Source: a virus
Strand: one strand, 5' to 3'
DNA: 58,342 nucleotides
IMG/VR virus record: IMGVR_UViG_3300044614_000336
Location: 1-58,342 of that record
The notes beneath the pieces were generated by a model. The model did not search any database. It was not told the DNA's origin and was given only the letters and a program-made list of their open reading frames with translations. Positions 10,268 to 55,916 of the stretch are shown here, in pieces. How positions within the stretch are numbered: the stretch's first letter is position 1; each line of letters opens with the position of its first letter. Both the position numbers and the translations under genes were made by a program.

Positions 10268-11160
10268 TAGAGGTTTCCTGTATGTTGAGCAATTGCCTGC
10301 ATGTTACCAGTGAAAGCAAACGTACCGATGTGCTGCGTCTTCATCCAAGGACACAACCAGACCTGAAGTCCAATTCGTCTTGCATACTGACAGAACATAT
10401 AATCTTCTGATAGATAGCGGTGTGAAGCGGTCTTTTCAATCTCAATCATCTTCTTGGCGTCTTCTGATACATTTTCTCCAGCAGAAGACCTGACAATGAG
10501 TGCATATAGATCATCGTAGGTGTAGCCGTTGTCGATCACAGTATCAAAGTACGCATGAATGTACCTAGAACCGTCAAAGTTTGCCTGTCCAACGTGGTCT
10601 GGCTTGTAGTTCTGCTTTGGATAAGCATCCTTGAACTTATCAAAGACTTCTCTCTTCACCATCATGAAGCCAGTACCAATCTCCATGACCTCAAGAGGCT
10701 CTGTAACTCTGAACTGCTTGGTGCCAGGCACGGGATTGAACACATAGTCACCTACCAGCATGTCCAAGACACCAGGAGCAACGGTGGGGTCTTTTACCAT
10801 AGCCGCTGCTATGTTCTTCCAGTTGATAGACTTCTTAGGGTACGGCGCTCCAATTATGTCCTTATTCAGTGCAATCAGAGCAAGAATATCTTGCGGATCG
10901 AAGTGAATGTCAGAGTCGATAAAAAGTAGATGAGTGTACCCAGAACGCAAGAATTCATCTACAAGGTAGTTTCGAGCGCGGGTGATCAGGGATTCATTGA
11001 ACAGAAAAGAGAAGCGGATCTCAATGCCGTTCTGCATACAGATGCCCTGTAAGTCAAGACAAGCCTTCATGTAGAGTCCGTTGTTCTGTCCACCATACAT
11101 TGGTGTGGCAACAAACAACTTTGCCTTTCTCAAATCTTCAAGCTTAATAGTCAATTCCAT
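10267..11160 (-). CDS. Phage glycosyltransferase (GT-A type)
   Basis: A 297-residue protein starting with a nucleotide-sugar binding strand KLFVATPMYGGQN (residues 14-26), then RARNYLVDEFLRSGYTHLLF and the DSD metal motif at 82-84. A second conserved patch is EVMEIGTGFMMVKREVF, followed by the acidic SEDYMFCQYARRIG. It resembles the N-terminal half of the larger GT-methyltransferase fusion at 45361-46689. The acceptor is unknown (virion, DNA or host). It lies downstream of a strong hairpin terminator and has GGAG before its ATG. Confidence 0.8.
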   Translation of the reverse strand: MELTIKLEDLRKAKLFVATPMYGGQNNGLYMKACLDLQGICMQNGIEIRFSFLFNESLITRARNYLVDEFLRSGYTHLLFIDSDIHFDPQDILALIALNKDIIGAPYPKKSINWKNIAAAMVKDPTVAPGVLDMLVGDYVFNPVPGTKQFRVTEPLEVMEIGTGFMMVKREVFDKFKDAYPKQNYKPDHVGQANFDGSRYIHAYFDTVIDNGYTYDDLYALIVRSSAGENVSEDAKKMIEIEKTASHRYLSEDYMFCQYARRIGLQVWLCPWMKTQHIGTFAFTGNMQAIAQHTGNL

Positions 11161-33515: not shown

Positions 33516-33523
33516 TATTTATA
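33516..33523 (-). promoter_or_regulatory. T4-type late promoter for gp67-like gene
   Basis: TATAAATA, 27 bp upstream of the ATG at 33489. It overlaps the last codons of the ADP-ribosyltransferase gene. Confidence 0.8.
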
Positions 33524-34442
33524 TTTCTTCTACTAGCTGACAATAAAACAGTGTAATAGGCAATTGTGATCCTGATCCTAAGAGTACATCGCTAGGCAAT
33601 GAGTGAGGCCCTGATACAACTACAATCTTTGATCCTCTTGGTAACATAGTTTCCATTTCACCAGACTGTGTGAAGGCTTCTGTATAGATCGACTTCTGTC
33701 CTTGCCCTATATCAATTTGCAATAAAGTAACAGAAGACATCTGTGCTTCTTCTGTTGCAGATTCGATACATACATTGTAATCAAGAGATGTTGAAACATA
33801 TCCTCTGAAGACATATTCACTGTTCATTTCTATCTGAGAAGGATTATATCTACCACTCAAACAAGTATAAACTGAGTAATTGAAAGGTGCTTGACTGTCT
33901 TCAAACAGCACATCAATTTCATCTACCATCTGAGTAACAAATCCTGCTAACTCTTCATCTGTACTAGGATCAAAACCTTGATATAGATATGTGTTAACAA
34001 CTTCAAAGTCAGAAGAAACAAAATCGATAAGAGTATTTATTTCCATCGAATCATACATTGAATCGTTGTAAAACTCTTTTAGAGCTTGATCAACTTGCAT
34101 GACCATATTACTCTCATCACTAAGAATTTTTTGGTCATTTTGAGTTCTTTTGTAGACTGTGTTTGTATATTGATCAGCTTGTTTTTTTAGTTCGTCAGTC
34201 TTTTCGTTCTTACCGCTTACTGAAGCTTTATAGTAATTTGCATACATGTCTTGCTGATTAGTGAAAGAAACAAGATTATCACCATCAAGAAGATATGCTA
34301 TTGATCCTTGATTATCAGCAAATCGACCAAATCCAACATATGTCAAACCCATCTTCTGAGCTTGTGACATTGCTTTAGATTTAGGTTGATCTAGTATCTG
34401 TGATGCTAAAGATTCTTTTAAGAACTCATCATACTTGAGCAT
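33519..34442 (-). CDS. Alt-like ADP-ribosyltransferase, probably head-packaged
   Basis: A 307-residue protein. The N-terminus MLKYDEFLKES is a T4-type capsid-targeting peptide with an L-K-E gp21 site. The C-terminal half has the R-S-E ADP-ribosyltransferase triad: Arg198 (TCLSGR), the STS motif at 217-219 (YVSTSL) and ExE at 262-264 (GEMETMLPRG), the last two closely resembling T4 Alt (FVSTSL, NEMEVILPRG). T4 Alt enters the host with DNA and modifies RNA polymerase. The ATG at 34442 has GGAG upstream; the gene lies next to the portal gene and overlaps it by 14 bp. Confidence 0.82.
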   Translation of the reverse strand: MLKYDEFLKESLASQILDQPKSKAMSQAQKMGLTYVGFGRFADNQGSIAYLLDGDNLVSFTNQQDMYANYYKASVSGKNEKTDELKKQADQYTNTVYKRTQNDQKILSDESNMVMQVDQALKEFYNDSMYDSMEINTLIDFVSSDFEVVNTYLYQGFDPSTDEELAGFVTQMVDEIDVLFEDSQAPFNYSVYTCLSGRYNPSQIEMNSEYVFRGYVSTSLDYNVCIESATEEAQMSSVTLLQIDIGQGQKSIYTEAFTQSGEMETMLPRGSKIVVVSGPHSLPSDVLLGSGSQLPITLFYCQLVEEI

Positions 34443-36117
34443 TCGCAGGCTCCATCGTATCATTCACAAAACGTTTCTTACTGGGTTGTGCCAATGGATT
34501 TGTTTGGTTTTTACCCATACCTGTTTGCTGTTCTGGTGCAACACCAGCACTTGCTGCTTTTAGACTTTCAGCAGGTGTAGGTGGCGGAACATTTGCTGGA
34601 ACTCCACCAGCGCCAGGCATAGTATTACCAAACTCATCTGTTGGCATATTTTGAGATGCTTCTTGATTGATTTGCTCTTGCATCTCTTCAATTTCTTCAT
34701 CATCCATCTGAAGGATGTTTCTGCGAACCCATTCCATAGAGTAGTAACGTCCTACATATGGATCAATAAGCTGTAGTGTTTGAACACGATTTTGAAGAAG
34801 CTCTGCTTCTTTCAGTTCTGTAAAGTTGTTATCTTTCTTGAAGTCGTACCATAGTTCTTCTTTGAATTCTTTCCACTCATCTTCGGTACAAATCTTCTTG
34901 AGAATGCACTGCACTCTAAGAAGATCATCAAATAGAGTAGAGAACTTGCTACGAAGACGATTGACAAATTTGGTAAATTTCAATTCGTCTCTAGTAATTT
35001 CTGTCGTGCGACCTAGTGAAAATCCTTGTTGCTGTTCAAGTCTTGAGATAGGAACACCAAGAGCCTTATATAGCTTCTTTTCAAAGTACTTAACGTCTTC
35101 TAATTCACCAAGGTTCATACCACCAGGAAGTGTTGTGATTTCCGTACCTTTACCACCTTCTCTACGTGGCAACCAAAAATCTTCAAGCATTGAGAGATGT
35201 TTGCGGTCGTCTTTGATTTCACCTGTGCTGGAATCATATACTAGCTTGTTACGATACTTGACCATAACATCACGTAAGTATTGTTCAGCTTTGATTGTTG
35301 GCATGTTACCAACATCAATATAGAATACTCTGCGCTCAGGTGCGCGAGAAAGTCTGTAGATAACTGTTGCGTCTTCGACCATGCGAAGCTGATTGAGAGG
35401 TTTGATAGCCTTGTGTAGATAAGAGAGAACCATAGCTCTCTTTGAATCCATTAGACCTGAATTGACATTTACAATAGCATCTAATGTGATCTTTGTGCCA
35501 AGTTGTGAATGGGCGCCGATCATACCTCTTTCATTATAGAGGTAATACTCTTTGATCTGCTTGATAACTTCCATTCCACTGTTTGGATCTTTTGTCTTCT
35601 GTACTTCACGAATTTTGCGAATTCTGCGAGGGTCAATGTACCTGATTTCTTGAATGCCCTTCTGTGGCGACTTGTCATCAATGACGATATGATAGAATAT
35701 TCTACCGTCAATGTACCATCTACGAAAAATATCATGACCCATATTACCAAAATCAAGTAGCTTCAGAATCTGATCAAATTCATCTCTGATTTTTTTCTTG
35801 ATAGCATTGGATTCTTTTATTTCATCTGTGTTAAGTTCAACACCGCGTTCTTCATCGTCATTGACAATAGCTTCATTGACAATTTCGTCTATAGCAGTTT
35901 CAAGTTCTGGCTGCATAGACATTTCACGGTATCTTGTGATGAGTTCGATTTCATTACGAACAACGCCATCTAGATCAACATATGTGCCATAGTAAGCACC
36001 CGACTGAATGGTTACGGCACCATCGTCGGTTGTTGGAATAGCAAACGATTTGTTACGTTCGTCTTCTTGTTGATTTTTCTTACGGCTTATTTCAAAACCG
36101 AAAAAGTTTACGGCCAT
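34429..36117 (-). CDS. 20: gp20 portal protein
   Basis: A 562-residue T4-type portal. Family landmarks are YRKLVY-like VKYRNKLVYDSSTGEI, the segment REGGKGTEITTLPGG then LEDVKYFEKKLYKALGVP, and GRTTEITRDELKF. The C-terminus is Pro/Ala-rich. It forms the dodecameric ring for DNA packaging and neck attachment. Preceded by a hairpin terminator, with the tail tube gene before it. Confidence 0.96.
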   Translation of the reverse strand: MAVNFFGFEISRKKNQQEDERNKSFAIPTTDDGAVTIQSGAYYGTYVDLDGVVRNEIELITRYREMSMQPELETAIDEIVNEAIVNDDEERGVELNTDEIKESNAIKKKIRDEFDQILKLLDFGNMGHDIFRRWYIDGRIFYHIVIDDKSPQKGIQEIRYIDPRRIRKIREVQKTKDPNSGMEVIKQIKEYYLYNERGMIGAHSQLGTKITLDAIVNVNSGLMDSKRAMVLSYLHKAIKPLNQLRMVEDATVIYRLSRAPERRVFYIDVGNMPTIKAEQYLRDVMVKYRNKLVYDSSTGEIKDDRKHLSMLEDFWLPRREGGKGTEITTLPGGMNLGELEDVKYFEKKLYKALGVPISRLEQQQGFSLGRTTEITRDELKFTKFVNRLRSKFSTLFDDLLRVQCILKKICTEDEWKEFKEELWYDFKKDNNFTELKEAELLQNRVQTLQLIDPYVGRYYSMEWVRRNILQMDDEEIEEMQEQINQEASQNMPTDEFGNTMPGAGGVPANVPPPTPAESLKAASAGVAPEQQTGMGKNQTNPLAQPSKKRFVNDTMEPANAQV

Positions 36118-41819: not shown

Positions 41820-42231
41820 TCTTCTTTTCTTTCATCTGTTTAAGTAGATCGGCAGTAGTTCCTACAAATACTGCTTTTTCTACTGTAACATTTGTTTTAT
41901 CTTCTTTCTTTGTACCACGTAAGTCTTGATTTTTCTTCTGTAGATCATACAGGTCTTTAGTAATATCTGCGATAGTCTTCATTGTTGTTGCTAATACTTC
42001 ATATGCTCTAGGAGATTCGGATTCTTTGGCCAAATCAGTCAAGTTTTCCATCGCAGCATTACCTTTCTCTATGAGAGATCGAAATGTGCGTCTTGATAGA
42101 TTGTAGTCAGCATCAGCATCATTGAATTCATGTGGAGTATTAATTATCACTTCTCTCTTAGGTTCTATGATTTCGACTTCATTGCCGATACCAAGAGAAC
42201 TTGAGATTATATCATTTGATTTTTCACTCAT
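41806..42231 (-). CDS. 16: gp16 terminase small subunit
   Basis: A 141-residue protein at the expected place next to gp17. The core FRSLIEKGNAAMENLTDLAK then SPRAYEVLATTMKTIADITK and LYDLQKKNQDLRG matches T4-type gp16 with its central coiled-coil oligomerisation domain. It recognises and feeds DNA to gp17. Two cargo-type genes are inserted between gp16 and gp17, unlike in T4. It overlaps gp15 by 4 bp. Confidence 0.87.
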   Translation of the reverse strand: MSEKSNDIISSSLGIGNEVEIIEPKREVIINTPHEFNDADADYNLSRRTFRSLIEKGNAAMENLTDLAKESESPRAYEVLATTMKTIADITKDLYDLQKKNQDLRGTKKEDKTNVTVEKAVFVGTTADLLKQMKEKKNENI

Positions 42232-43238
42232 TCAGTTTCTGGCCATTCTGTTATTGTTGTAGTAAATCCAAAATCTTCATCTGGTTCAGCATCAATTGGA
42301 TTTGGATCAATCTGTATCTGAGCAAGCTTTATCGGTGTTATATCAAAACTAGCTATATTGCAGACAGCATTCGTTGATGCTGCTCTAATAGTATTGTTTA
42401 CTTTAAACTGACCTTGAGAACCACCAATAACAAGTCTGTTGGTTTCATCATGCCAACTCAAAACATATCCGTATGCGGTAGCAGTTTGATAATTAGCACC
42501 TTGATATACGATATCATTTACTTTGAAATTGCTATTTGCCAAAGGTTCTGTTGTATTGATCTTGATGATATTACCTGCTTTAAGTGATTCATCATTGTAG
42601 ATATTAGCAAATACACGACGAATGATCTTGCCTGTAGAAACTGGACCGTAATAGTATGCCTTCATCGTGAAAGAAAGAGTCCATGATACATATCTTACAG
42701 CATCAAAGTTACCTTCATGCTCAATCACATTAGATACTTGATTAAGTATGATAGGAATGTCTTTGAGAAATCCCATTGTAGGTACAGAATCGATTGTCAC
42801 TGTGTAGTCAGGATTAAAATATGGTAAAATTTGTTCTACAATATGTGTACCATCATCAACGTTTCTTGCGTATATCTGTAGATCGAAATTCAAGTCATAC
42901 GGCACACCCATATACTGAGATGCACCACGTGAAGATGTATTTGCAATAGGATTTTTTAGCAGTGAATTTTGTTTTCTAGAAGCATCATATGAAAACCCAG
43001 TCAATTCAAATGACATTCTAGGTAGAACAACCTGTACTGGTCTCTCTAAGTCTGGGTCTGCTCTTAGTCTTGAGTAATACTTTTCTTTTGGTGCATAGAC
43101 AACAGGCACTTTGAAACGTTCAATTTCAACTTCTGAATTCTTGTTAATGCGCTTCACAGTAATATTGTTGAACATATTACCAAACAATATTACATATTTG
43201 CGAGTTAATTGATGATAAAAGTAAGCATTAGATAACAT
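42228..43238 (-). CDS. 15: gp15 tail terminator (sheath stabiliser) with extra domain
   Basis: A 336-residue protein. The N-terminal 230 residues match T4 gp15: AYFYHQLTRKYVILFGNMFN, VPVVYAPKEKYYSRL, VEQILPYFNPDY and WTLSFTMKAYYYGP. A C-terminal insert at about 235-310 (FKVNDIVYQGANYQTATAYG then VLSWHDETNRLVIGGSQGQF) is not in T4 and is repeated in gp14. gp15 hexamers cap the tail and connect the neck. Confidence 0.9.
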   Translation of the reverse strand: MLSNAYFYHQLTRKYVILFGNMFNNITVKRINKNSEVEIERFKVPVVYAPKEKYYSRLRADPDLERPVQVVLPRMSFELTGFSYDASRKQNSLLKNPIANTSSRGASQYMGVPYDLNFDLQIYARNVDDGTHIVEQILPYFNPDYTVTIDSVPTMGFLKDIPIILNQVSNVIEHEGNFDAVRYVSWTLSFTMKAYYYGPVSTGKIIRRVFANIYNDESLKAGNIIKINTTEPLANSNFKVNDIVYQGANYQTATAYGYVLSWHDETNRLVIGGSQGQFKVNNTIRAASTNAVCNIASFDITPIKLAQIQIDPNPIDAEPDEDFGFTTTITEWPETE

Positions 43239-43240
43239 TT

Positions 43241-44116
43241 TTACGGCATCCCGAATGGATTGATCTCTGATAGATCAATGAATGTATTAGCTTCGTTTTG
43301 TATAACGCGATTATCAGAATCATCGTATTCAATGAGATCAGACATGTCATCAAACGATATGACATTGTATCTTGTATTTGAACTTACACCAATAACGTTT
43401 ATTGATGATCTTATATTGCCTGCAATATTGATAATCTGCAATATCTTTGTTCCAGGATTCCAGTTCTTCACTTCTGCCGTTGCTGAAGCATATGCAAGAT
43501 TAGCACCTTGATACACAATTTCATCTTGTATGAAATTACCAGAACCTGTGCCTAAGTTCATCTCAATAGAATAAGATACCACATGTTCAATATCATCAAC
43601 TTCTGCAACACCAGTATCAAAGTTTTCATTGCTGTAACGGAATGTTTCACAACGCAATTCATACATATATGGTTTTCTTTTACCAAGCGAGAAGAACATC
43701 AATTCTTCTTCTACGAACTTGATTTCAAATATCTTGTTTAACAAAGGAACATACAACAGATCACCTTCTCTTGGTCTGATTGCTGTATTTGAAGGTACAT
43801 ATTTTTCAAATGATCTTCTTGATACAACAAAGTTTGATGTGTCTCGAATTTCAAGACCAAACTTAGAAAAGAAGTCACCATCACCTTCGTAACCTTCTAC
43901 GTTAGCCAGATACATTTCTATGGTATATGCTCTGCTGAACTTTGAATTTACGCTTTCACCAAGAACATCATCAGCGGAATCATAAACTTCTCTTGGTAGA
44001 TACTTGACATCATGACCCATGATTTGAATTGATTCGATTATCAAATCTTCAAGAAGAAAATTTTCATTGATATCAGAAGGTGAAAAATTATTGAAGTATA
44101 CGGAAGTTGCCATCAT
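43241..44116 (-). CDS. 14: gp14 neck protein with extra domain
   Basis: A 291-residue neck protein. The core matches T4 gp14: LLEDLIIESIQIMGHDVKYL, REVYDSADDVLGE, YLANVEGYEGDGDFFSKFG, REGDLLYVPLLNKIFEIKFV. After residue 185 comes the domain FIQDEIVYQGANLAYASATA then EVKNWNPGTKILQII, shared with gp15. The C-terminus returns to a gp14-like ending (INPFGMP). The double ATG at 44116/44113 follows GGGG. Confidence 0.92.
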   Translation of the reverse strand: MMATSVYFNNFSPSDINENFLLEDLIIESIQIMGHDVKYLPREVYDSADDVLGESVNSKFSRAYTIEMYLANVEGYEGDGDFFSKFGLEIRDTSNFVVSRRSFEKYVPSNTAIRPREGDLLYVPLLNKIFEIKFVEEELMFFSLGKRKPYMYELRCETFRYSNENFDTGVAEVDDIEHVVSYSIEMNLGTGSGNFIQDEIVYQGANLAYASATAEVKNWNPGTKILQIINIAGNIRSSINVIGVSSNTRYNVISFDDMSDLIEYDDSDNRVIQNEANTFIDLSEINPFGMP

Positions 44117-44857
44117 TTACCCCATTATGAAATTTGGAGGTTCTTCGTAGGTATCTCGTATCAACTGTTCTATCTCTTTGACTTCAGCATCTGCTTCATT
44201 GTAGATTTGTTGACCGTTCATTGTCACACCACCAGGTAACTGCATACCAGCAAACTTCTTCATGTTGTTACCCCAAATTCTCTTGATATGTGCTGTTGTC
44301 AATCTCTTCAACATACGATCATTCCATACATCAGCATATGAACTTGGATCAACTATGATAAATCCTTCAACAATCAAGTACTCTCCTACATTTGCCATAG
44401 CCCAGTTCCAATCAAGATATAGCTTGTCTGTGTGTCTATTGAATCGAATTGGTTGTTCACCTGAGAATAGCATATCTAGTGTTCTAATGTGCTGCATAGT
44501 TAAAGCATAGTTGACATATGATACTGAGGTAAAGTCATAAAGTTCATGAAGTCTTAATTGATAGCGAAGATCGAACATGTTAACGCTGGCGTTTGTCGTA
44601 GATATAGGAAATATTCGAGTGACACCAATGATGTTCTCTGTAATAGGAATGTATCCGTTTGTGATGTTTTCTTGTGTGACCTGGTGCTTCGTGTACCAGC
44701 GTTCTACACCGTCAAAATGAAAGTCTTGAAAATACTGTAAAGCGGAATCTACACAATCATCAACCTGATCGTCATCGACGTTGATATTGATGACTGGATG
44801 TCCTAGTTGTCTAAGACACCAGTCTTTGTGCTGCTCTCTTGTGGTAGGAATAGCCAT
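44117..44857 (-). CDS. 13: gp13 neck protein
   Basis: A 246-residue T4-type head-completion/neck protein: MAIPTTREQHKDWCLRQLGH, PVININVDDDQVDDCVDSAL, YFQDFHFDGVERWYTKHQVT and KRIWGNNMKKFAGMQLPGGV. With gp14 it seals the head and allows tail attachment. It begins 24 bp after a late promoter, leading the 13-14-15-16-cargo-17 series. Confidence 0.95.
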   Translation of the reverse strand: MAIPTTREQHKDWCLRQLGHPVININVDDDQVDDCVDSALQYFQDFHFDGVERWYTKHQVTQENITNGYIPITENIIGVTRIFPISTTNASVNMFDLRYQLRLHELYDFTSVSYVNYALTMQHIRTLDMLFSGEQPIRFNRHTDKLYLDWNWAMANVGEYLIVEGFIIVDPSSYADVWNDRMLKRLTTAHIKRIWGNNMKKFAGMQLPGGVTMNGQQIYNEADAEVKEIEQLIRDTYEEPPNFIMG

Positions 44858-44899: not shown

Positions 44900-45337
44900 T
44901 TACGGCTTAGGATACTTTTCTTTAACTTCTTGAATCTTTGCTTTTATAGCTTCATACTCAACTGAAGTTATGCCTTTAGCAATTGCACCTAGCTGATCAC
45001 CAATTGGAGGGTACTCTGCACGGCGAAGAGCATAGTAGTCAGGACTATCTGCTTTTACTATTTCTTCTTTCAGAATAGGCACTTCTGTTTGTGTGCCTAA
45101 GATAAGATCATCAACAGTTCTTGTTTTAGGAGTTAGTGCTTCCCAAGCAGCTTCTTTTCTGTCTATGTCTGCATATACTGAAGCTTCAATATTTAAAAGT
45201 GACTGACTGACATCTTGCCCTCTTGGAATATATGCTAACCAATCATATGTTTGTCCATTGTGAACGACTTCTAGATAAGCAATGTCACGAGTTTCTGGTT
45301 CTGGTGGTGTGTAAAGTCCTTTTAGACCTATTGTCAT
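44900..45337 (-). CDS. Tail-fibre-assembly-like hypothetical protein
   Basis: A 145-residue protein. The N-terminal half is beta-rich (TRDIAYLEVVHNGQTYDWLA). The end LRRAEYPPIGDQLGAIAKG then IKAKIQEVKEKYPKP resembles the C-terminal motif of many phage fibre-associated proteins. It precedes gp13 and follows the fibre cluster in transcription order, so a role in fibre or tail assembly is the natural guess; not certain. Confidence 0.62.
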   Translation of the reverse strand: MTIGLKGLYTPPEPETRDIAYLEVVHNGQTYDWLAYIPRGQDVSQSLLNIEASVYADIDRKEAAWEALTPKTRTVDDLILGTQTEVPILKEEIVKADSPDYYALRRAEYPPIGDQLGAIAKGITSVEYEAIKAKIQEVKEKYPKP

Positions 45338-45360: not shown

Positions 45361-46689
45361 TTATTCTTTTACCCAATACCAAAGGTCTTGCCTTGCATTC
45401 TTGATTTCAGCGTTTACTGAATTAGCAAATTCATGAACAGCTTTGTTAACACCTTCAATGCGGGCAAAGTCATGACCAATAATCAGACCGCCTTTGCGAA
45501 CCTTAGGATAGTAGTTCTTACAGTCAAGAAGAACTTGATCGTATGTATGAAGACCGTCAATGAACACAAAGTCTAAACTCTCATCTTCAAAGTCATCTAC
45601 AGCTTCATCAGAACTCTTGTATATGTGATCATACCTTGATTCAAAAGGTGATGTCTTTTTCAACATTTCATTCTTGTTCTTATCGCCAGCAGGTTGATTT
45701 CCATCCCAATCAATATATGTTGGATAAGAATCGATTCCCGTCAGCTTCAAGTCTTTTACAGTTGATAGCAGATACTCAGTAGTAAATCCTTCAGCAACAC
45801 CAATTTCTAAACCAACAGGATTCTCTATACCCTCAATTAGTTTTGGAATATCTTCACCAGGAAGCCAGCGGGTTACACCCTCAGTTGGATTGTTAAGCCC
45901 ACCAGGAAGTCTTGAAGTCCAACGATAGTCAATGAACATCTTATCTTCAATCGTCAAAGGGACAGTTGGCTTGATGTTCGTGAAGTAATGATTTAGATTT
46001 ACAGACGGATGTGCTGTATACTTACCTGTTGCTATATCCATGTGTAAGCACTGAACATCTGTATTGACAAGTACCTTGACACCAGACTTTCGGCAACGAT
46101 GCAAGAAGAAATTATCTTCACCAATAAAAGGAATATCTTCAATGCCGTTAGCAATGCAAGTAAATGGCAAATCAGGGTCTTCATTTTTCATTCTGCGAAG
46201 TGTCTCAACAGGAATCAACATAACATCCATGCCCGTCTGCCATGCTTCAAATACTTGACCAGGAGATACATCAGGAACAATGATGTGATTATTCTGCTTG
46301 ACTGAAATCATTGCATGAGCGCACTTGATGTAATAGACACCAGCAGCAATATGCCCTGGATTTTCTTCGCAAGTCTTGTGAAGCTTTTCAAATGCATCAT
46401 AGGGAACAACAGTATCATCACCAATGAAGAACATATACTTTGCATCAGATTCTAATACAGTATCAATCAAATAGTTTCTAGCAACATCAACGAGCATCTT
46501 TTCACAGTCAACATAACCATGTGAATGTCCCATCAGAGCAACATGGCATAGCCCATAACCATTGAATGTTTGTGCTGCTGTTTCTTCTTTGTTACGGCGA
46601 GGTTGCGCTATGATAACATAAGGTGCAATTTCTTTTGATTCTTCTTTGATATTACGAAGAGTCTGAATGATCTTTTCACGATTGTACAT
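45361..46689 (-). CDS. Glycosyltransferase-methyltransferase fusion
   Basis: A 442-residue two-domain protein. The N-terminal about 240 residues are GT-A-like: APYVIIAQPRR, SDAKYMFFIGDDTVVPYDAF with GDD as the DxD motif, AWQTGMDVMLIPVETLRRM and IGEDNFFLHRCRKSGVKV. The C-terminal about 190 residues form a class I SAM methyltransferase: GLEIGVAEGFTTEYLL, LTGIDSYPT, FVFIDGLHTYDQVLLDCKNY and VRKGGLIIGHDF. It could both add and methylate a sugar, perhaps on the neighbouring fibres. A TCTAAATA box lies 36 bp upstream. Confidence 0.82.
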   Translation of the reverse strand: MYNREKIIQTLRNIKEESKEIAPYVIIAQPRRNKEETAAQTFNGYGLCHVALMGHSHGYVDCEKMLVDVARNYLIDTVLESDAKYMFFIGDDTVVPYDAFEKLHKTCEENPGHIAAGVYYIKCAHAMISVKQNNHIIVPDVSPGQVFEAWQTGMDVMLIPVETLRRMKNEDPDLPFTCIANGIEDIPFIGEDNFFLHRCRKSGVKVLVNTDVQCLHMDIATGKYTAHPSVNLNHYFTNIKPTVPLTIEDKMFIDYRWTSRLPGGLNNPTEGVTRWLPGEDIPKLIEGIENPVGLEIGVAEGFTTEYLLSTVKDLKLTGIDSYPTYIDWDGNQPAGDKNKNEMLKKTSPFESRYDHIYKSSDEAVDDFEDESLDFVFIDGLHTYDQVLLDCKNYYPKVRKGGLIIGHDFARIEGVNKAVHEFANSVNAEIKNARQDLWYWVKE

Positions 46690-46716: not shown

Positions 46717-47853
46717 TCAATACTTATTTAGATACGAGTGGAGAGCAACTCCTTTTGGAAATGTGATGCCTGAGTTGTTTCTGATAAGCTGACCTCTGTT
46801 GGCATTACCATTTATAAAATGAATATCACCATTAGGCGCTAGAACACCACCAACATAAGCTAAAGTGGTGGTATAAACAAGACTGTATGTTGATACAACA
46901 CCAGCAGCAGATATCTTTTGCCCTACAGCAGCACTATAAGGTACAAAATGTATATCACCATTAGGCGCTAGGACACCACCTTCATAACCATTAGTAGTAG
47001 TATAAACTAAAGTATAAGTAGACACTACACCAGCAGCAGATATTTTTTGACCTACAGCGGCACTACGAGGTACAAAATGTATATCACCATTAGGCGCTAA
47101 GACACCGCCAGTATAGGCGGCAGAAACAGTATAAACTAGTGAGTAGGTCGAAACAGTACCGGCAGCAGATATTTTTTGACCTACAGCGGCACTACGAGGT
47201 ACAAAATGTATATCACCATTAGGCGCTAAAACACCGCCTTGATAAGCTAAATTAGTAGTATAAACTAAACTGTATGTTGATACAGTACCAGTAGTGGATA
47301 TTTTTTGTCCTCTATTAGCAAAATTAGGTACGAAATGAATATCACCATTAGGTGCTAGAACACCACCAGCATAAGCTTGAAGAGTAGTATAAACTAAACT
47401 GTACGTTGATACAATATTAGCAGCAGATATCTTTTGTCCTCTGTTAGCAGAATGAGGTACGAAATGTATATCACCATTAGGTGCTAGAACACCTCCTAGG
47501 TAAGCATTAGATGCGGTATATACAAGACTGTACGTTGATACAATATTAGCAGCAGATATCTTTTGCCCTCTGTTAGCATTATTAGGAATAAAATGTATAT
47601 CACCATTAGGTGCTAGAACACCTCCCCAATACACTATTGAAAGAGAATTTGTATTTAGTAAACTATATGTACTAACAATATCATTCGTAAACAATCTACC
47701 AGCAGTATTTGCCTCATCAAGAAATTCTTTAAATTGATTCCAACCTGCTAGATCAGTTCCAATGCTACTGTTATCAGCACTAGGTAATGCACCTTGTATT
47801 TCACTGTGAACTTCTTGAACAAAACTTGGTGATATTTTGCGAATGTTTGACAT
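46717..47853 (-). CDS. Seven-repeat beta-propeller-like fibre protein 1
   Basis: A 378-residue protein: an N-terminal helix region (about 1-58), then seven copies of a 43-residue unit with GGVLAPNGDIHF at its heart, then a short end HSYLNKY. Seven repeats with the GGVLAP core suggest a seven-bladed propeller. Framework residues are nearly identical whereas the residue before GGV (W, L, A, Q, T, E, V) and two after HFVP vary, as in a ligand-binding surface. Tandem with two paralogues next to fibre genes, so receptor or glycan binding is likely. Confidence 0.7.
   Translation of the reverse strand: MSNIRKISPSFVQEVHSEIQGALPSADNSSIGTDLAGWNQFKEFLDEANTAGRLFTNDIVSTYSLLNTNSLSIVYWGGVLAPNGDIHFIPNNANRGQKISAANIVSTYSLVYTASNAYLGGVLAPNGDIHFVPHSANRGQKISAANIVSTYSLVYTTLQAYAGGVLAPNGDIHFVPNFANRGQKISTTGTVSTYSLVYTTNLAYQGGVLAPNGDIHFVPRSAAVGQKISAAGTVSTYSLVYTVSAAYTGGVLAPNGDIHFVPRSAAVGQKISAAGVVSTYTLVYTTTNGYEGGVLAPNGDIHFVPYSAAVGQKISAAGVVSTYSLVYTTTLAYVGGVLAPNGDIHFINGNANRGQLIRNNSGITFPKGVALHSYLNKY
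46725..46732 (-). promoter_or_regulatory. Late promoter variant within propeller gene end
   Basis: TCTAAATA (7/8) 36 bp upstream of the glycosyltransferase-methyltransferase start. The same bases encode part of the C-terminal YLNKY of the preceding gene. Confidence 0.45.
46780..47676 (-). repeat. Seven 129-bp repeats (propeller units)
   Basis: Seven tandem units of about 129 bp, each containing GGVLAPNGDIHF at protein level. Framework codons often differ synonymously between copies, so the protein repeat is better conserved than the DNA. Confidence 0.85.
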
Positions 47854-47861
47854 TGTTTACC

Positions 47862-49004
47862 TTAAAACTTATTTAACCAAGGTGATCTACAGATAGATGC
47901 TTCAAATGGTGATGACATTGTTGATATCTTTTGTCCTCTGTCCGCAGTATGAGGAACAAAATGTATATCACCATTAGGTGCTAAAACACCACCAGCATAA
48001 GCACCAGATGAAGTAGTATAAACCAAACTGTATGTTGATACAACACCAGAAGCAGATATCTTTTGTCCTCTGTTCGCAGTATGAGGAACAAAATGTATAT
48101 CACCATTTGGTGCTAGAACGCCACCAAAATAAGCAGTAGAAGTAGTATAAACAAGACTATAAGTAGATACTACACCAGAAGCGGATATCTTTTGTCCAAC
48201 AACAGCAGCATAAGGAATAAAATGAATATCACCATTTGGCGCTAGAACACCGCCTCTATATGCATCAGAAGTAGTATAGACAAGACTGTAAGTTGATACA
48301 ACACCAGCAGCAGATATCTTTTGTCCTCTATTACCACTATTAGGAATAAAATGTATATCACCATTTGGTGCTAGAACACCACCTCTATAACCACCAGATG
48401 AAGTGGTATAAACCAATGAATAAGTTGATACTACACCAGCAGCAGATATCTTTTGCCCTCTATTTGCTTGAGAAGGCACAAAATGGATATCACCATTAGG
48501 TGCTAGAACACCACCACGATAAATTTGAGAACCAGTATAAACAAGACTGTATGTTGATACAGTGCCATCTTGTGCTATCTTTTGTCCTCTATCAGCACTA
48601 CAGGGTATAAAATGAATGTCGCCGTTTGGTGCTAGAACACCACCATGATAGGCACCGCCGAACACGCTTGTGGTATATATCAAACTGTATGTAGTTACTA
48701 CACCAGCATTAGATATCTTTTGCCCTCTATTGGCTGTATTAGGAATAAAATGAATGTCTTCGTTAGGTGCTAAGACACCACCGATATAATCTTGAGAACT
48801 AGTATAAACAAGACTGTACGTACTAATAATTTCAGTAGAATACAGTTTACCTTTAGCAATGCTTTTCTGTAGTAAATGCTGAAATTTACCAAATGCAACT
48901 CGCCCGCTATCAATAGAACTGTTATTTGCGGTTGGTAGTGTGCCCCAACCACGTGCTACTGTTTCTGATACCCATTGTGGTGCTATGTTGAATGTATTTG
49001 TCAT
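47862..49004 (-). CDS. Seven-repeat beta-propeller-like fibre protein 2
   Basis: A 380-residue paralogue of its neighbours, with the same N-terminal pattern (WGTLPTANNSSIDSG, then FGKFQHLLQKSIAKGKL) and seven units around GGVLAPNGDIHF (first copy NED). The end RSPWLNKF matches the other copies. Variable positions precede GGV (I, H, R, R, R, F, A) and follow HF[I/V]P. The start has weak ribosome-binding sequence and TCTAAATA 12 bases upstream. Confidence 0.7.
   Translation of the reverse strand: MTNTFNIAPQWVSETVARGWGTLPTANNSSIDSGRVAFGKFQHLLQKSIAKGKLYSTEIISTYSLVYTSSQDYIGGVLAPNEDIHFIPNTANRGQKISNAGVVTTYSLIYTTSVFGGAYHGGVLAPNGDIHFIPCSADRGQKIAQDGTVSTYSLVYTGSQIYRGGVLAPNGDIHFVPSQANRGQKISAAGVVSTYSLVYTTSSGGYRGGVLAPNGDIHFIPNSGNRGQKISAAGVVSTYSLVYTTSDAYRGGVLAPNGDIHFIPYAAVVGQKISASGVVSTYSLVYTTSTAYFGGVLAPNGDIHFVPHTANRGQKISASGVVSTYSLVYTTSSGAYAGGVLAPNGDIHFVPHTADRGQKISTMSSPFEASICRSPWLNKF
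47920..48840 (-). repeat. Seven tandem repeats in propeller protein 2
   Basis: Seven tandem units, 129 bp or slightly longer where SGGY/SGAY-type insertions occur before GGV. Same family as the repeats in the flanking genes. Confidence 0.85.
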
Positions 49005-49007
49005 CTG

Positions 49008-50138
49008 TTATAACTTATTTAGATAAGGTGAAGCACAAGTACCAAAGTCTAGTGGGCGTGCTGAGTTTGTGTGAAGGATTGTGCCTCTGTTGGCACTTCT
49101 AGGAACAAAATGTATGTCTCCATTAGGTAATAAAATACCACCATTATACGCATTTGCAACTGTATATACAAGACTGTAAGTTGAAACAACACCAGAAGCT
49201 GATATCTTTTGACCTATAGGTGCATTATAAGGCACAAAATGTATATCACCATTAGGAGCTAAGACACCACCTTGATAAGTACCACTTGAAGTTGTGTACA
49301 CAAGACTATAAGTGGATACTACACCATCAGCAGAAATCTTCTGTCCTCTATTAGCATTTCCAAGAACAAAATGAATATCACCATTAAGTGCTAGAACACC
49401 ACCAGTATAAGCACCAGAAGAAGTTGTGTACACAAGACTATATGTACTTACTACGCCAGAGGCAGATATCTTTTGACCAACAGCAGCACTACCAGGAATG
49501 AAATGAATATCACCATTAGGCGCTAGAACACCACCATAATAAGCACCACCTGATGTGGTATAAACTAAACTATACGTACTCACGACCCCGCTAGAAGAAA
49601 TCTTCTGACCTACTCTAGCATTTGCAGGAGCAAATTGAATTTCGCCGCTCGGTGTTAATACACCACCAATATAAGCACCAGTAAAAGTTGTGTACACAAG
49701 ACTATAAGTGGATACTACACCATCAGCAGAAACTTTTTGGCCTACGGCAGCAAGATAAGGTACAAAATGAATATCACCATTTGGTGCTAGAACACCGCCG
49801 ATGTACATAGCTCCTGTAGTGTATACCAAACTATATGTGCTTACAGTTCCATTAGGTGCTATCTTTTGCCCTCTATTAGCATTCCAAGGAATAAAATGTA
49901 TATCACCATTAGGTGCTAAAACACCTCCTAGGTAAGCATCAGTAGTAGTATAAACTAAACTATACGTAGATACTATATCAGTAGTAAATGTCTTACCTGC
50001 TCTTACACTTCTATCGATGTTTGCTTTAAATCCAATCCAATCATCTGTAGGTGTACTAGCATCACCACGAGGAATAATACCATGTGCTGTTTCATAAAAG
50101 TCTGATAGATTAGTTGGACCTAGATAGTTACCTGGCAT
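49008..50138 (-). CDS. Seven-repeat beta-propeller-like fibre protein 3
   Basis: A 376-residue third paralogue. The N-terminus LSDFYETAHGIIPRGDASTP shares the LP-[RST]-AD/GD-x-S motif with the others. Seven units again, but with more drift (GGVLTPSGEIQFAP, GGVLALNGDIHFVL and GGILLPNGDIHFVP). C-terminus CASPYLNKL. It is the first of the three in transcription order and lies after the fibre gene at 50140-52089. Confidence 0.7.
   Translation of the reverse strand: MPGNYLGPTNLSDFYETAHGIIPRGDASTPTDDWIGFKANIDRSVRAGKTFTTDIVSTYSLVYTTTDAYLGGVLAPNGDIHFIPWNANRGQKIAPNGTVSTYSLVYTTGAMYIGGVLAPNGDIHFVPYLAAVGQKVSADGVVSTYSLVYTTFTGAYIGGVLTPSGEIQFAPANARVGQKISSSGVVSTYSLVYTTSGGAYYGGVLAPNGDIHFIPGSAAVGQKISASGVVSTYSLVYTTSSGAYTGGVLALNGDIHFVLGNANRGQKISADGVVSTYSLVYTTSSGTYQGGVLAPNGDIHFVPYNAPIGQKISASGVVSTYSLVYTVANAYNGGILLPNGDIHFVPRSANRGTILHTNSARPLDFGTCASPYLNKL
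49090..49990 (-). repeat. Seven tandem repeats in propeller protein 3
   Basis: Seven diverged units of the propeller repeat, most about 129 bp. This copy carries the largest number of framework substitutions. Confidence 0.8.
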
Positions 50139-50139
50139 T

Positions 50140-52089
50140 TTATCCTAACACAATGACTGTATACTGATTTGTTGTTGGTGCCGTCACAAATTCCAATACT
50201 ATAGTATTTGCAGATGTATGTTTCATATCTGGATAGACATAGTATCCAGTAGAGTTTTCACGAACAGCAGGAACAACAAAGTTCTTATTGAGATTATGAG
50301 ATATACTAAACAAATTTGCAGAGTTGTTACCTACATTTGCAGAGAATACTGCGGCACCACCACCAGTAACCGTTGCACCGTTAACATAAAGTGCGGCTGT
50401 ATTGATTGCACCTGCTACATCAAGCTTGACACCAAGACCCACTGTAGAATCTGCTGTACGACCAACAAGAACATTACCTGTAGCAGTAACAACAAAAGGT
50501 GTAGAATCTGGATTTGCTTCGTCTTCTACTCTGATTGCTTCACCAGTTCCAGTTTGTGTAATTCTTAAAGCAGCATTAGTATTATCTGCAACAGAGATGA
50601 CTAGATTGGATGTATATGAAGTAGAATTAGCTTTCGCAAAAGCTGCTATGGCAATAGTGTTAGATGCTGCACCAACAGCATTTGTGTAATTATTACCAGC
50701 AGTACCTATAGAAACGCTTATAGCATTTGTGTAATTGTTACCAGCGGTGCCTATAGAAGTACTTATTGCATTAGTATAAGCGTTACCAGCCGCACCAACA
50801 GCAGTACCATAAGAATTGGCTATAGTTAAAATTGAAACACCATTAACCAACACAGCAGAAGCATTAATTGCGCCGTTAACGTCCAGTTTGACACCTTGAC
50901 CTACTGTTGAATCTGTGCGGCTGATGAGAACGTTGCCATTACCGTCAACTCGCAATCTTTCAGTAAATACAGGAGGAACAGTGTTAGCTGCTCCACTATT
51001 ATATCCTGTCCATAGTGCAAACTGGCCACTTGTGTTACGAATTACCCATCCACCCTGAGAAGCAACAGTGCTTCTCCAGTTTCCGCCATCCCAATATGCG
51101 CCACCACCAATATAACTACCATCAGATGCAATGAGAGGATCTCTAGTGCTAATGAAAGTTGTTGTTGATGTGAAAGGTGTTGCTGTGCCAACACCGACTT
51201 CACCGGACGCTGTAACAACAAAAGGCGTTGCATCCGGATTAGCACTGTCCTCCACTCTAATTGCTTCGCCGGTGCCAGTCTGAGTAATACGCAATGCAGC
51301 ATTGGTATTGTCAGCAACAGAGATGACTATATTGGATGTGTATGTGGTAGAGTTGGCTTTTGCAAAAGCTGCTATGGCAATAGTGTTACCGGCAGTACCT
51401 ACGGCATTAGTATAAGCATTACCGGCAGCACCAACAGCAGTACCATAAGAATTGGCTATAGTTAAAATTGAAACACCATTAACCAACACAGCAGAAGCAT
51501 TAATTGCACCTGCTACATCTAGTATAACACCTTGACCTACTGTGGAATCTGTGCGACCGATAGTTACATTACTTTCAACATATAACTGTGCCGCGCCTGC
51601 GCCAATATTAATAATTTGAACTTGATTTGTATTTGAACCACCGGTAAAAAGTCTTAAAGAATTTTGAAAAGAATCAATGTTCCAATCATCATAGAAAGCA
51701 GTGCCTCTAGCACCACGAAGACTTATTTCTCCTCCTTCACTAGTACCATTAAAAGCAGTAACAATCAAAGATGCATTTGCAGTAATAGAGCCGCTAGATG
51801 TTATCGTTCCTGTTGTTGTTAGTGAACCATTAAGAGTTGCTGTTGTATTTGAAAATGCAGGAGTACCATTAATCAGAACAGCAGAGGCATTAATTGCGCC
51901 TGCAACATCCAGTTTGACGCCTTGACCTACAGTACTATTAACTCGACCAATGAGCAAGTTACCAGAAGCATCAAAACGAGCATCTTCAGTATTTCCTGTA
52001 ACAAATGTTAGTACATTAGCACCGTTAGCTTGTAGTCTTGTTGAACCTGTTACATCAAAATGTATGTTTGCGACTTTAAGAATAGCCAT
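50140..52089 (-). CDS. Tail fibre protein with distal C-terminal domain
   Basis: A 649-residue fibre-like protein. A unit NLLIGRVNSTVGQGVKLDVA followed by GAINASAVLVNG occurs four or more times (near residues 46, 176, 393, 553). Ala/Asn/Gly/Thr-rich repeat segments with AVGAAGNAYTN-type units separate them. The C-terminus NLFSISHNLNKNFVVPAVRE then TAPTTNQYTVIVLG matches the tip domain common in phage fibres. It begins 24 bp after a perfect late promoter. Confidence 0.8.
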   Translation of the reverse strand: MAILKVANIHFDVTGSTRLQANGANVLTFVTGNTEDARFDASGNLLIGRVNSTVGQGVKLDVAGAINASAVLINGTPAFSNTTATLNGSLTTTGTITSSGSITANASLIVTAFNGTSEGGEISLRGARGTAFYDDWNIDSFQNSLRLFTGGSNTNQVQIINIGAGAAQLYVESNVTIGRTDSTVGQGVILDVAGAINASAVLVNGVSILTIANSYGTAVGAAGNAYTNAVGTAGNTIAIAAFAKANSTTYTSNIVISVADNTNAALRITQTGTGEAIRVEDSANPDATPFVVTASGEVGVGTATPFTSTTTFISTRDPLIASDGSYIGGGAYWDGGNWRSTVASQGGWVIRNTSGQFALWTGYNSGAANTVPPVFTERLRVDGNGNVLISRTDSTVGQGVKLDVNGAINASAVLVNGVSILTIANSYGTAVGAAGNAYTNAISTSIGTAGNNYTNAISVSIGTAGNNYTNAVGAASNTIAIAAFAKANSTSYTSNLVISVADNTNAALRITQTGTGEAIRVEDEANPDSTPFVVTATGNVLVGRTADSTVGLGVKLDVAGAINTAALYVNGATVTGGGAAVFSANVGNNSANLFSISHNLNKNFVVPAVRENSTGYYVYPDMKHTSANTIVLEFVTAPTTNQYTVIVLG

Positions 52090-52101: not shown

Positions 52102-54126
52102 TTATGTTAACATATTTATATCACCGTAGATCATAATCATTCCATTTGGTAAAATACTCATAGCAGAACCAAAATTAATGACGTTTGAGGTGACGTTAAG
52201 TCCTTTAGTTGTTACGTTTTCTGAAACATTTAAAACGCCTGTAAATGTAGTACCAGAAGTATTTGAAAGTGCCGCATTTGCCTTGTTGAATGATGCTGTG
52301 ATCCAATTAATTGTATTAACACCACCAAGAAGCAAATTGCTCGTTCTCAAATCAGCATTGAGAACAGCAAGTGACATATTGTTAGAAAGCGCGCCAATAT
52401 GATTGTTTTCAGGTTCTTTATCATAACCTTGAAACAGATAATACATCTTGTCTACATGTTCACGGTATAATCCTGTGTGAACATTAGAACCTGTGGCATT
52501 TACATAGTTTCCAATAAAACCAATATCTACAATATCAGAAGTGTAGTTGTTACCAGCTAGATAAATGAGAGGATCTGATACGCTAAGGTTTTCAGCATTA
52601 ACTATAGTTGTATTACCAGAAATTGTTAAACTACCTACAACAGAAAGATTACCAGTTATAGTTTGACTTGATGCAGTCAACTTTACAAAAGTAGAGTTTG
52701 CATAACTTTTGGCATCTGTACCAACTGTGTTAGTCCATCCATTAGATGCTACACCTACAGCAATTGTGTAGTTATTTCCTGCTGAACCTACTGCAATCGT
52801 ATAATTGTTACCGGCAGTGCCTACAGAAGCACTTACAGAAACTACATAATTGTTACCAGCAGTACCAACAGTAGTGGTAAAATTATTACCAGCAATACCA
52901 ACAGCAGTTGCATACGCATTAGAAGCTGTAGAACGAGTTGTTGATATAGAATTTGCCCAACCGTTAGCCGCTGCACCAACAGCATTCGTATAATTATTAC
53001 CAGCAGTACCAACAGAAATTGTATAATTGTTACCGGCAGTACCAACAGCATTCGTATAATTATTTCCTGCTGTGCCTACTGCAATCGTATAGTTGTTACC
53101 AGCAGTGCTTATAGAATTAGCCCATGCATTGGCACCAATACCTGTATTGAATGCTAAAACGTTAGCAGCATTAGCTTTATCAAATGCCGCTGTTACATCA
53201 ACGGCAGTGCCGTAATAAGATCCATGCTGACCATCAAGAAGATCGGCATCTAAACCTGATGATGCGCCATCATTACCGGCATGCCAAATAGTATTTGCGT
53301 CATATGTAAGAGGTCCTGCACCATCTCGACCTAAAAGTTTACCGTCGTTTGGACCAAACATAACGTAACCAATTGATGCGTTTTGTTGACCTTTGATACG
53401 AAGAGCATTAGCGAGATTTGTGTCACCGATCCAAGTGTCATCACCGACTCTAAAATTTTCGCCATTGCCGTTATTGAGTGTAATTACACGATCTGAAGTA
53501 AGGTTTTGAGTGACTGTGAGATTACCATTGAAAGATACACCTGAAACATTTGGTAAAGCAGCGTTTGCTGTTGCTCTAGCAGTAGCGTCAGTAGCAGAAG
53601 CTGCCGCTAAAAGGTCAGTACCAACAGTTGCTGAAGTAGCAGCTAAATTGATAAATGCACCTCTTGCATCTCCACCAGCTACAAAAAATCTTAGTTGATT
53701 TCTAAAGATATCAATGTTTACAGGTCCAGCAAGAAGAGAATTTGTGATTGCATTTGCAAGTCTTATTTCACCACCTTCATCACCACTAGCTGCGGTTATT
53801 GAAAGAAGTCCTGGAATTGCTACATCATCTTTTAGACCAATTGTAACCTTGTCATTGACAGCATCACCAACAATGTTGATATTGTTACCTGGTGCAATGC
53901 TCAAAATATCATTAGACGTATCTGCAACTAACAGTGTGCTATTGGCGTTTACCGTACCAAAATAGTTACTTGATGTTGTTGGTGCAAATTCTACAATAAA
54001 ACCAGCAGTGTTTTTGTAGTATATTTTACCGTCAGCATAGTTTAAAGCTAACTCACCGTTAGCCAAACTTGTTGGTACCGCTAATGCTGTTGCTGATTTT
54101 TTAAGTGCGATTACTGTATTTGGCAT
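52102..54126 (-). CDS. Tail fibre protein with 11-residue repeats
   Basis: A 674-residue fibre protein. The N-terminus MPNTVIALKKSATALAVPTS with NGELALNYADGKIYYKNTAG is the attachment module typical of marine phage fibres. Residues about 335-485 carry many 11-residue repeats AVGTAGNNYT[N/I], suggesting a hendecad right-handed coiled coil or other trimeric shaft. Then comes the domain TITGNLSVVGSLTISGNTTI through YREHVDKMYYLFQGYD, shared with the next fibre gene. A TATAAATA promoter for the following gene lies in its last codons. Confidence 0.8.
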   Translation of the reverse strand: MPNTVIALKKSATALAVPTSLANGELALNYADGKIYYKNTAGFIVEFAPTTSSNYFGTVNANSTLLVADTSNDILSIAPGNNINIVGDAVNDKVTIGLKDDVAIPGLLSITAASGDEGGEIRLANAITNSLLAGPVNIDIFRNQLRFFVAGGDARGAFINLAATSATVGTDLLAAASATDATARATANAALPNVSGVSFNGNLTVTQNLTSDRVITLNNGNGENFRVGDDTWIGDTNLANALRIKGQQNASIGYVMFGPNDGKLLGRDGAGPLTYDANTIWHAGNDGASSGLDADLLDGQHGSYYGTAVDVTAAFDKANAANVLAFNTGIGANAWANSISTAGNNYTIAVGTAGNNYTNAVGTAGNNYTISVGTAGNNYTNAVGAAANGWANSISTTRSTASNAYATAVGIAGNNFTTTVGTAGNNYVVSVSASVGTAGNNYTIAVGSAGNNYTIAVGVASNGWTNTVGTDAKSYANSTFVKLTASSQTITGNLSVVGSLTISGNTTIVNAENLSVSDPLIYLAGNNYTSDIVDIGFIGNYVNATGSNVHTGLYREHVDKMYYLFQGYDKEPENNHIGALSNNMSLAVLNADLRTSNLLLGGVNTINWITASFNKANAALSNTSGTTFTGVLNVSENVTTKGLNVTSNVINFGSAMSILPNGMIMIYGDINMLT
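52113..52120 (-). promoter_or_regulatory. T4-type late promoter for fibre gene
   Basis: TATAAATA, 24 bp upstream of the 50140-52089 gene start, within the final codons of the upstream fibre gene. Confidence 0.78.
52700..53130 (-). repeat. 33-bp (11-residue) fibre repeats
   Basis: Repeated 33-bp units encode AVGTAGNNYT[N/I/V]. The unit recurs about ten times with small interruptions (SISTTRSTASNAYA). Similar units occur in the fibre genes at 50140-52089 and 54582-55916. Confidence 0.8.
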
Positions 54127-54581: not shown

Positions 54582-55916
54582 TTAAAAGCCACCACCATCT
54601 AGCATTGCAAACTGTGGAATTCCAGTAGATGATGCTTGCAGAACTTGTCCTTCTGTACCTGCCGATGTCACTTTCAATGCACCAGCAGTGTTACCAAAAA
54701 GAACACCATTCTGAGTAAACGATGTCATTGCAGTACCACCAAAAGGAACAGTTAGCAATCCTGTGTTTATTCTTGATGCATCTCGTGATGCGGTATTTGC
54801 GGCTGCACCTATTGCTTCAGCGTAAGCATTAGATGACAACGCTCTAGTACTAGAAATAGTGTTCGCCCAATTATTAGCCTCGGCACCTATTGCGAGTGTA
54901 TAGTTGTTACCAGCAGTACCTACGGCATTTGTATAGTTATTACCAGCGGCACCTATAGCAGTTGCATAAGCATTACTAGAGACACTTAATGCATTAGCCC
55001 ACGCATTGGCACCAATACCTGTTTCGAATGCTAGAACATTGGCTGCATTAGCTTTATCGAATGCGGAGGCAATCAAAAGAATTGCATTGGCACCACCAAG
55101 AGTCAAATTGCTTGTTCTCAGATCAGCATTCAATACAGCCAAAGTCATGTTGTTAGAAAACGCACCAATGTGGTTGTTTGCTGGTTCTGCATCATAGCCT
55201 TGGAATAGATAATATTGTTTGTCTACATGTTCACGATACAATCCTGTATGAACATTTGAACCTGTGGCGTTTACATAATTGGCAATAAAACCAATATCTA
55301 CGATGTCTGAGAGATAGTTGTTACCAGCAAGATAGATGAGAGGATCAGTTACTCTTAAATTTTCAGCATTGATTATAGTTGTATTACCAGAAATTGTAAG
55401 AGAACCAACAATAGAAAGATTGCCTGTGATTGTTTGACTAGGTGATGTAAGTCGCACAAAAGTAGATGTTGCAAAACTATTAATAGTGTTTGACCAAGCA
55501 TTAGCTGCTGCACCAACAGATACACTATAATTATTACCAGCAGTACCTACGGCATTTATATAAGCATTACCAGCACCACCAACAGCATTTGTATAGTTAT
55601 TACCGGCAGTACCTATTACTTGTGTATAAGCATTACCAGCTGCACCTACAGCAACTGTGTAGTTGTTTCCTGCTGCACCAACAGCAGTCGCATAAGAGTT
55701 CGCAATACCTGGTGCAGCATTGGCTTGCTGAAAAGCTGCTACTGTAGTATCTACCCAGTATTTACCACCAATTTCTATTACACCAGTACCAGCGGTGTTA
55801 CCGATGAAAAGTTTATCTGAGTTAAATGAATAAGCCGGTTCGGCTGCCGCCAAAGAACCATTAGTCGGTGTAGCTGTAGATGACGATCTTTTAATTTGAA
55901 TTACTGTATTTGCCAT
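54582..55916 (-). CDS. Tail fibre protein (paralogue)
   Basis: A 444-residue fibre protein. The N-terminus MANTVIQIKRSSSTATPTNG then YSFNSDKLFIGNTAGTGVIE is the same type of attachment module as in the 52102-54126 gene. The middle has 11-residue AVGTAGNNYTN repeats and the domain TITGNLSIVGSLTISGNTTI ... YREHVDKQYYLFQGYDAEPA, nearly identical to its neighbour over about 115 residues. The end (TSAGTEGQVLQASSTGIPQF) is typical of trimeric fibre ends. Confidence 0.78.
   Translation of the reverse strand: MANTVIQIKRSSSTATPTNGSLAAAEPAYSFNSDKLFIGNTAGTGVIEIGGKYWVDTTVAAFQQANAAPGIANSYATAVGAAGNNYTVAVGAAGNAYTQVIGTAGNNYTNAVGGAGNAYINAVGTAGNNYSVSVGAAANAWSNTINSFATSTFVRLTSPSQTITGNLSIVGSLTISGNTTIINAENLRVTDPLIYLAGNNYLSDIVDIGFIANYVNATGSNVHTGLYREHVDKQYYLFQGYDAEPANNHIGAFSNNMTLAVLNADLRTSNLTLGGANAILLIASAFDKANAANVLAFETGIGANAWANALSVSSNAYATAIGAAGNNYTNAVGTAGNNYTLAIGAEANNWANTISSTRALSSNAYAEAIGAAANTASRDASRINTGLLTVPFGGTAMTSFTQNGVLFGNTAGALKVTSAGTEGQVLQASSTGIPQFAMLDGGGF

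Follow-up and report, generated by a model that had tools for sequence, protein, structure and literature searches.

Our analysis concerns IMG/VR virus record IMGVR_UViG_3300044614_000336, studied over its whole length of 58,342 bases (the window) and coming from a virus attributed to aquatic bacteria. At its centre are three adjacent paralogous genes, A, B and C in order of transcription, each of which encodes exactly seven propeller blades. We consider it likely that the three proteins are receptor- or glycan-binding heads of tail fibres which have been diversified by recombination among their blades.

Architecture and fold of the propeller trio

The trio lies on the minus strand, with gaps of 3 and 8 bp between the open reading frames (ORFs). 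Gene A (49008..50138, 376 aa) encodes an N module (residues 1-55), seven blades (approximate bounds 49062..49973) and the end SPYLNKL; gene B (47862..49004, 380 aa) encodes N-terminal helices at residues 11-20 and 36-51, seven blades (approximately 47922..48827) and the end SPWLNKF; and gene C (46717..47853, 378 aa) encodes an N module, seven blades (approximately 46771..47676) and the end HSYLNKY. All units are 43-46 aa long, and an earlier note on this DNA, which had described three adjacent paralogues of seven units each, was exact in its coordinates. Its claim that both ends are shared stands for the C-terminal LNK[LFY], common to the three proteins, but only loosely for the N-terminal module, which follows one plan with two predicted helices and has 8 invariant residues up to I55. 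A scan of IMG/VR returned 78 loci, cited below by the L-numbers of their contigs where needed. Exactly seven units were present in 186 of 197 related ORFs, the exceptions being truncations, frameshifts, interruptions or fusions, and chance is thereby excluded as the origin of the pattern.

AlphaFold2, run for B with 41 sequences, predicts a closed propeller of seven blades (pLDDT 89.5, pTM 0.88), as had been anticipated. The model consists of two N-terminal helices, seven four-stranded sets (28 strands) and a short tail at the C-terminus; from the order of the strands, we infer that ring closure, of the kind usual in propellers, would be between the unit 1 strand VSTYS and the last unit. When this model was compared with the PDB by Foldseek, the best matches were streptogramin lyases (2qc5 and 2z2p, TMt 0.86-0.90), and the virginiamycin B lyase (Vgb) profile PF24684, which has a curated cut-off of 50 bits, scored 67.7 for B, 53.6 for C and 47.2, just below the cut-off, for A. 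The family is a propeller of Vgb type, neither WD40 nor kelch: the WD/kelch-type fold named in the earlier note has to be given up, with no such Pfam match for the trio at E up to 1. Matches of the trio proteins to PHROG profiles were also set aside, being short, chance-like matches to the repeat. The best viral structural match was a collagen-repeat protein of the giant virus Hokovirus HKV1 (BFVD A0A1V0SG21; 25% identity, TMq 0.79).

Hypervariable positions and the predicted pocket

Per-position entropy was calculated over 1,099 units from 157 distinct proteins. It was highest at positions 15 (3.79 bits), 30 (3.65), 12 (3.27) and 31 (3.18), followed by 33 (3.00), 10 (2.90) and 11 (2.77), while typical framework positions stayed below 0.7 bits and G16 and G17 below 0.2 bits. 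Position 15 is the residue before GGV, and positions 30 and 31 are the two after HFVP; these are the sites which had been singled out as variable within a fixed framework, and they are indeed the most variable ones, together with loop position 12. According to strand order, positions 10-13 form the between-blade loop, position 15 starts the inner strand and the B-C loop spans positions 29-34. Between-blade loops, like those linking internal strands, belong to the top face in every propeller (PMC8916777). The A-B loop (PNG), on the opposite face, is nearly fixed, and the C-D loop (positions 40 and 41) is moderately variable (about 2.2 bits). Variability in the top loops exceeds that of the remaining positions (p = 0.0005), so that it is concentrated on one face and not spread evenly.

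Position 15 aligns with H228 of Vgb and, in the next blade, with the corresponding His of 2qc5; H270A is given as the inactive mutant in the PDB title of 2z2p, residue 270 being exactly 42 residues past 228. As judged from these alignments, the variable positions appear to coincide with the place of the Vgb active site. Blades 1 to 7 are similar in residue make-up at the pocket positions, with no notable preference by blade index, and blade 7 often has Y instead of H at position 26. A separate observation concerns position 34, which is two-state in all trio loci (R 46%, V 43%), its neighbours being either fixed or freely variable.

Probable blade exchange within genomes

To follow gene identity along the proteins, A, B and C labels were placed on trees from 40 non-redundant trios. 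In the tree of terminal segments, the sequences clustered by gene, with 10 label changes against 57 after shuffling; the tree of the blade region required 55 changes against 57, that is, the blades hold no memory of their gene. The terminal tree is based on few columns and its branches are long; its contrast with the blade tree is nevertheless large.

Silent sites give a concordant picture. Fourfold-site identity between different blades of one genome was 0.457 within the same gene and 0.434 with another gene, compared with 0.340-0.347 between genomes and a codon-usage expectation of 0.349; the window's own within-genome value was 0.542. Such within-genome sharing of synonymous sites, beyond codon bias, indicates gene conversion, and blades are thus homogenised at silent sites, as in concerted evolution of the kind known from the fungal HNWD genes discussed below. 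Exact tracts of at least 50 nt between non-orthologous blades occurred in 27 of the 8,400 pairs within genomes and were absent from all 327,600 pairs between genomes, and in the window itself blades C4 and C5 have a 68-nt exact tract in common. The near-identical contigs L026 and L030 differ in one stretch of blade C2, including pocket positions 30 and 31, which in L026 equals its own B2 over 58 nt and in L030 its own B1. Between L008 and L010, gene A is about 93% and gene C about 98% identical, and gene B about 80% across the whole propeller, with replacement to silent changes in B of 32:7 in the pocket and 30:64 elsewhere (p = 1e-7). The proposal that recombination among 21 blades generates the diversity is supported by synonymous homogenisation, long exact tracts and one donor-matched tract replacement.

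The isolate relatives comprise only two Cylindrospermopsis phages, whose proteins (CrV-01T gp012 and Cr-LKS4 g13, annotated as hypothetical) are about 35% identical to the trio. Like the trio proteins, they have a variable position before GGV, exactly seven related blades at the C-terminus and a terminal LNK[FI]; unlike the trio, each is a single gene (1,130-1,138 aa) whose long N-terminal part is unrelated. Between the two phages, DNA identity is 98% over that part, whereas the propeller differs at 25 of the 35 pocket codons and at only 4 of the 91 framework codons (Fisher p = 2e-14). Within each phage, the blades are 91-93% identical in DNA. These genomes are deposited phage records, in which some assembly error is possible too.

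Recurrence and genomic setting

Exactly 21 blades were counted in 45 of the 52 clusters lying well inside their loci, with exceptions that include 14 and 7. After the trio, nearly all of 47 other trio loci have a gene like the window's gene 4 (45361..46689) and then one like gene 5 (44900..45337). Conversely, all 48 loci of the 145-aa family encoded by gene 5 that extended far enough upstream carried blades there (43 with exactly 21), a count to be read with the knowledge that the profile was built from trio loci, which favours finding blades beside its matches. In some of the carrier contigs, which are T4-like, the N module is short; in others, the surroundings of the trio have no match to the window's T4-type genes and the N module is longer. 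This long form shares homology with the N-terminal regions of tail fibres of isolates. The window's short form is only the common helical part, and for the window the fibre homology is therefore indirect. Gly-rich, fibre-tip-like ends occur in some trio members, and L064 encodes a 14-blade fusion protein with a Gly-rich end. Two pattern-limited scans of GTDB genomes for bacterial or prophage copies found no relative, and our literature search found no paper describing the trio or the cassette.

Several loci depart from the basic plan. Domains inserted in the N-terminal region were seen in one trio member each of L035, L054, L056 and L067, in C of L005, and in B and C of L079, and are either a second, different propeller or a lectin-like Laminin_G_3 domain. 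In L032 and L048 the third propeller ends after five blades, in L032 continuing into a Gly-rich end, and fragments of blades are present again about 1.2 kb beyond that point, which looks like an interruption of the gene or a replacement of its end.

The window's T4-type genes include portal, major head protein, sheath, terminase, head closure and tail sheath stabiliser, and by its major head protein the nearest isolate is Pelagibacter phage Mosig EXVC030M (67% identity). The trio is directly upstream of the T4-type neck genes, the head-tail adaptor, head closure and tail sheath stabiliser genes occupying 42228..44857 on the same strand, after the cassette. On its other side is a fibre-like minus-strand gene of 649 aa (50140..52089), relatives of which precede the trio in T4-like contigs; its product has a C-terminal domain that is also present in tail fibres of isolates and that has a PHROG match labelled head decoration. 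A second fibre-like gene on this strand (52102..54126, 674 aa) carries degenerate GTAGNNYTNAV-type repeats and has no confident family among Pfam and PHROG profiles. In pelagimyophages and cyanomyophages the host recognition cluster sits before the neck genes (PMC7029224), and the trio is likewise encoded in a tail-fibre or host-recognition region, as receptor-binding proteins (RBPs) are. Taken together, the fibre position, the long-form N modules, the inserted lectin-like or second propeller domains and the Gly-rich tips point to a probable role in binding the host surface. An association with the fibre system had been suggested earlier, and it gains from the position, from the homology of long-form N modules to isolates' tail fibres and from the lectin-like and Gly-rich domains of some members.

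Gene 4 (minus strand, 442 aa) encodes an N-terminal glycosyltransferase-like domain, a label given by weak GT2 and PHROG glycosyltransferase matches only, and a C-terminal methyltransferase (Methyltransf_24). It has an acidic GEDT-type motif with invariant D92 and T93, and a PDB profile search of its product returned no match. Across phages, its relatives combine one N-terminal glycosyltransferase-like domain with two methyltransferase types: among 24 members, Methyltransf_24 was found in 4 and Methyltransf_11/23 in 19. The N-terminal half of gene 4 also matches phrog_1574, a domain present in a second gene of the window (10267-11160). Gene 5 (minus strand, 145 aa) encodes a beta domain followed by C-terminal helices; its product has no PDB fold match and no sequence match to a solved structure or known chaperone, and its C-terminal helical segment recurs in other small phage proteins. 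A chaperone-like role of this product is no more than inferred. Elsewhere in the window, a fibre-like protein (54582-55916) weakly matches Mtd_N, the N-terminal domain of major tropism determinants, no reverse transcriptase having been found in the window, and an Alt-like ADP-ribosyltransferase match (33519-34463; PHROG, E 9e-6) adjoins the portal gene.

Proposed mechanism and alternative explanations

We propose that each head would be a seven-bladed propeller of Vgb fold on a small N-terminal module, with a central pocket on the top face whose lining repeats a few hypervariable positions seven times. Because gene order is conserved and the ends are gene-specific, A, B and C would occupy separate, fixed structural places, perhaps as three distinct subunits of one tip or each on a fibre of its own. 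Their blades would at the same time form one interchangeable pool of 21 units, in which gene conversion would keep the framework uniform and move pocket residues between units, with selection favouring change in the pocket. The heads or the host surface are the probable targets of the glycosyltransferase-methyltransferase, and the 145-aa protein is likely to aid assembly. What the analysis shows directly is the architecture of the sequences, the predicted fold, where the variability lies, the conservation of the cassette and the homogenisation of the blades; ligand binding, virion location, subunit arrangement and these helper functions are all things that we infer. As a more tentative suggestion, the five genes together could form a mobile host-recognition cassette in unrelated aquatic phages, combining diversity without a retroelement, three non-equivalent subunits and a conversion pool of 21 blades.

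This interpretation comes with several caveats. The chief one is that gene conversion is deduced mostly from metagenome contigs, in which such repeats may be misassembled from short reads; repeats of the HNWD type cannot be reconstructed from Illumina-based assemblies (PMC12222747). The homogenisation within genomes is modest (0.43-0.46 vs 0.34), and the top-face mapping comes from strand order and alignment, without coordinates. None of the relatives is of tested function, and the adjoining glycosyltransferase could mean a role other than adsorption.

Of the alternatives, the one that survives best, though we find it unlikely, is that the trio proteins decorate the head, neck or tail, or serve in particle adhesion through general glycan or surface binding (mucus, biofilm, host sheath), and are not receptor tips. 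This would suit their position beside the neck genes and the match of the upstream gene's C-terminal domain to a PHROG labelled head decoration, and the lectin-like insertions would be compatible with general glycan binding. However, the long-form N modules and the neighbouring genes are tail-fibre-like, and a pocket that turns over between nearly identical phages suggests that its ligand is specific and selected. Rather less credible is purely passive diversification, in which neutral drift at loose loop positions and short-read mixing of repeats would account for the data with neither a selected pocket nor blade exchange. Misassembly could yield the tract differences between L026 and L030, all sequences except two records are uncultured assemblies, and blades are saturated between genomes. 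This explanation nevertheless has to face the excess of pocket replacements in the B genes of L008 and L010 and in the two deposited Cylindrospermopsis genomes, as well as a blade number divisible by seven in almost every cluster, a stability unlike collapse or expansion artefacts, which would break it.

We regard it as highly improbable that the virus carries Vgb-type enzymes, be it for antibiotic inactivation or as a related lyase, even though two of the three proteins score above the PF24684 cut-off and Vgb structures are their best fold and sequence matches. The catalytic-type His positions fall on the most variable position, and His at position 15 in consecutive blades (the H228/H270 type) occurs in none of 120 proteins, any such His being present in only 7; the lack of the pair in all 120 means that the trio proteins are not the Vgb enzyme. 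A resistance enzyme would also hardly be expected as three tandem copies in a tail cluster, joined to a putative phage attachment module. Least probable of all are targets of a diversity-generating retroelement (DGR) encoded elsewhere in the genome, which the hypervariable positions in a fixed framework do resemble and which the window's weakly Mtd_N-like fibre might bring to mind, since none of 35 cassette-carrying contigs (several >160 kb, most incomplete) has an RVT_1 match and relatives also differ from one another at non-adenine positions and by the replacement of blocks of several bases.

Implications and comparison with known systems

If the heads are indeed diversified by blade recombination, phages would be able to vary host recognition without a retroelement, with the single blade as the unit of exchange and three times seven as the number. 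The small set of pocket positions would also make the link between adhesin diversification and host recognition directly testable. A practical consequence is that genes of viral metagenomes named virginiamycin B lyase may be adhesins and not resistance genes.

With Vgb and streptogramin lyases (PF24684; 2z2p, 2z2n, 2qc5), the trio has in common the seven-bladed fold, the period, the blade register and detectable sequence homology. It differs from them in lacking the catalytic His pair, in whose place hypervariable residues are found, and in its nearly identical blades, its N- and C-terminal viral modules and its three tandem paralogues. The 145-aa protein can be compared with fibre chaperones such as Pam3 gp25 (PMC9608196) for its beta N-terminal domain and helical C-terminal segment; unlike tail fibre assembly chaperones, it has no sequence or fold match to solved structures. 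The pelagimyophage and cyanomyophage host recognition cluster resembles the window in lying before the neck gene gp14 and in its fibres and glycosyltransferases, but no propellers are reported in that cluster (PMC7029224).

Propellers are also known among phage RBPs, namely phi11 Gp45 (five blades, a homotrimer with a GlcNAc-sized cavity), phiKZ gp131C (seven blades) and PRD1 P2 (PMC4901313). As in our reading of the trio, these have been proposed to bind host surface sugars at a tail or vertex. They are, in contrast, single genes for which neither near-identical hypervariable blades nor a tandem trio is reported, and PDB searches revealed no sequence relation of the trio to any of them. In evolutionary mode, the closest parallel is found outside viruses. 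The WD40 sensors of the Podospora HNWD genes (het-d/het-e) have near-identical blades maintained by concerted evolution and an interaction surface with few hypervariable sites under diversifying selection (PMC12222747). HNWD proteins are fungal NLR immune receptors of the WD40 family with a variable number of repeats, whereas the trio is viral and has seven per gene; what they have in common is blade homogenisation paired with surface hypervariability, and the trio would, if our interpretation holds, be the phage counterpart of conversion-based receptor diversification.

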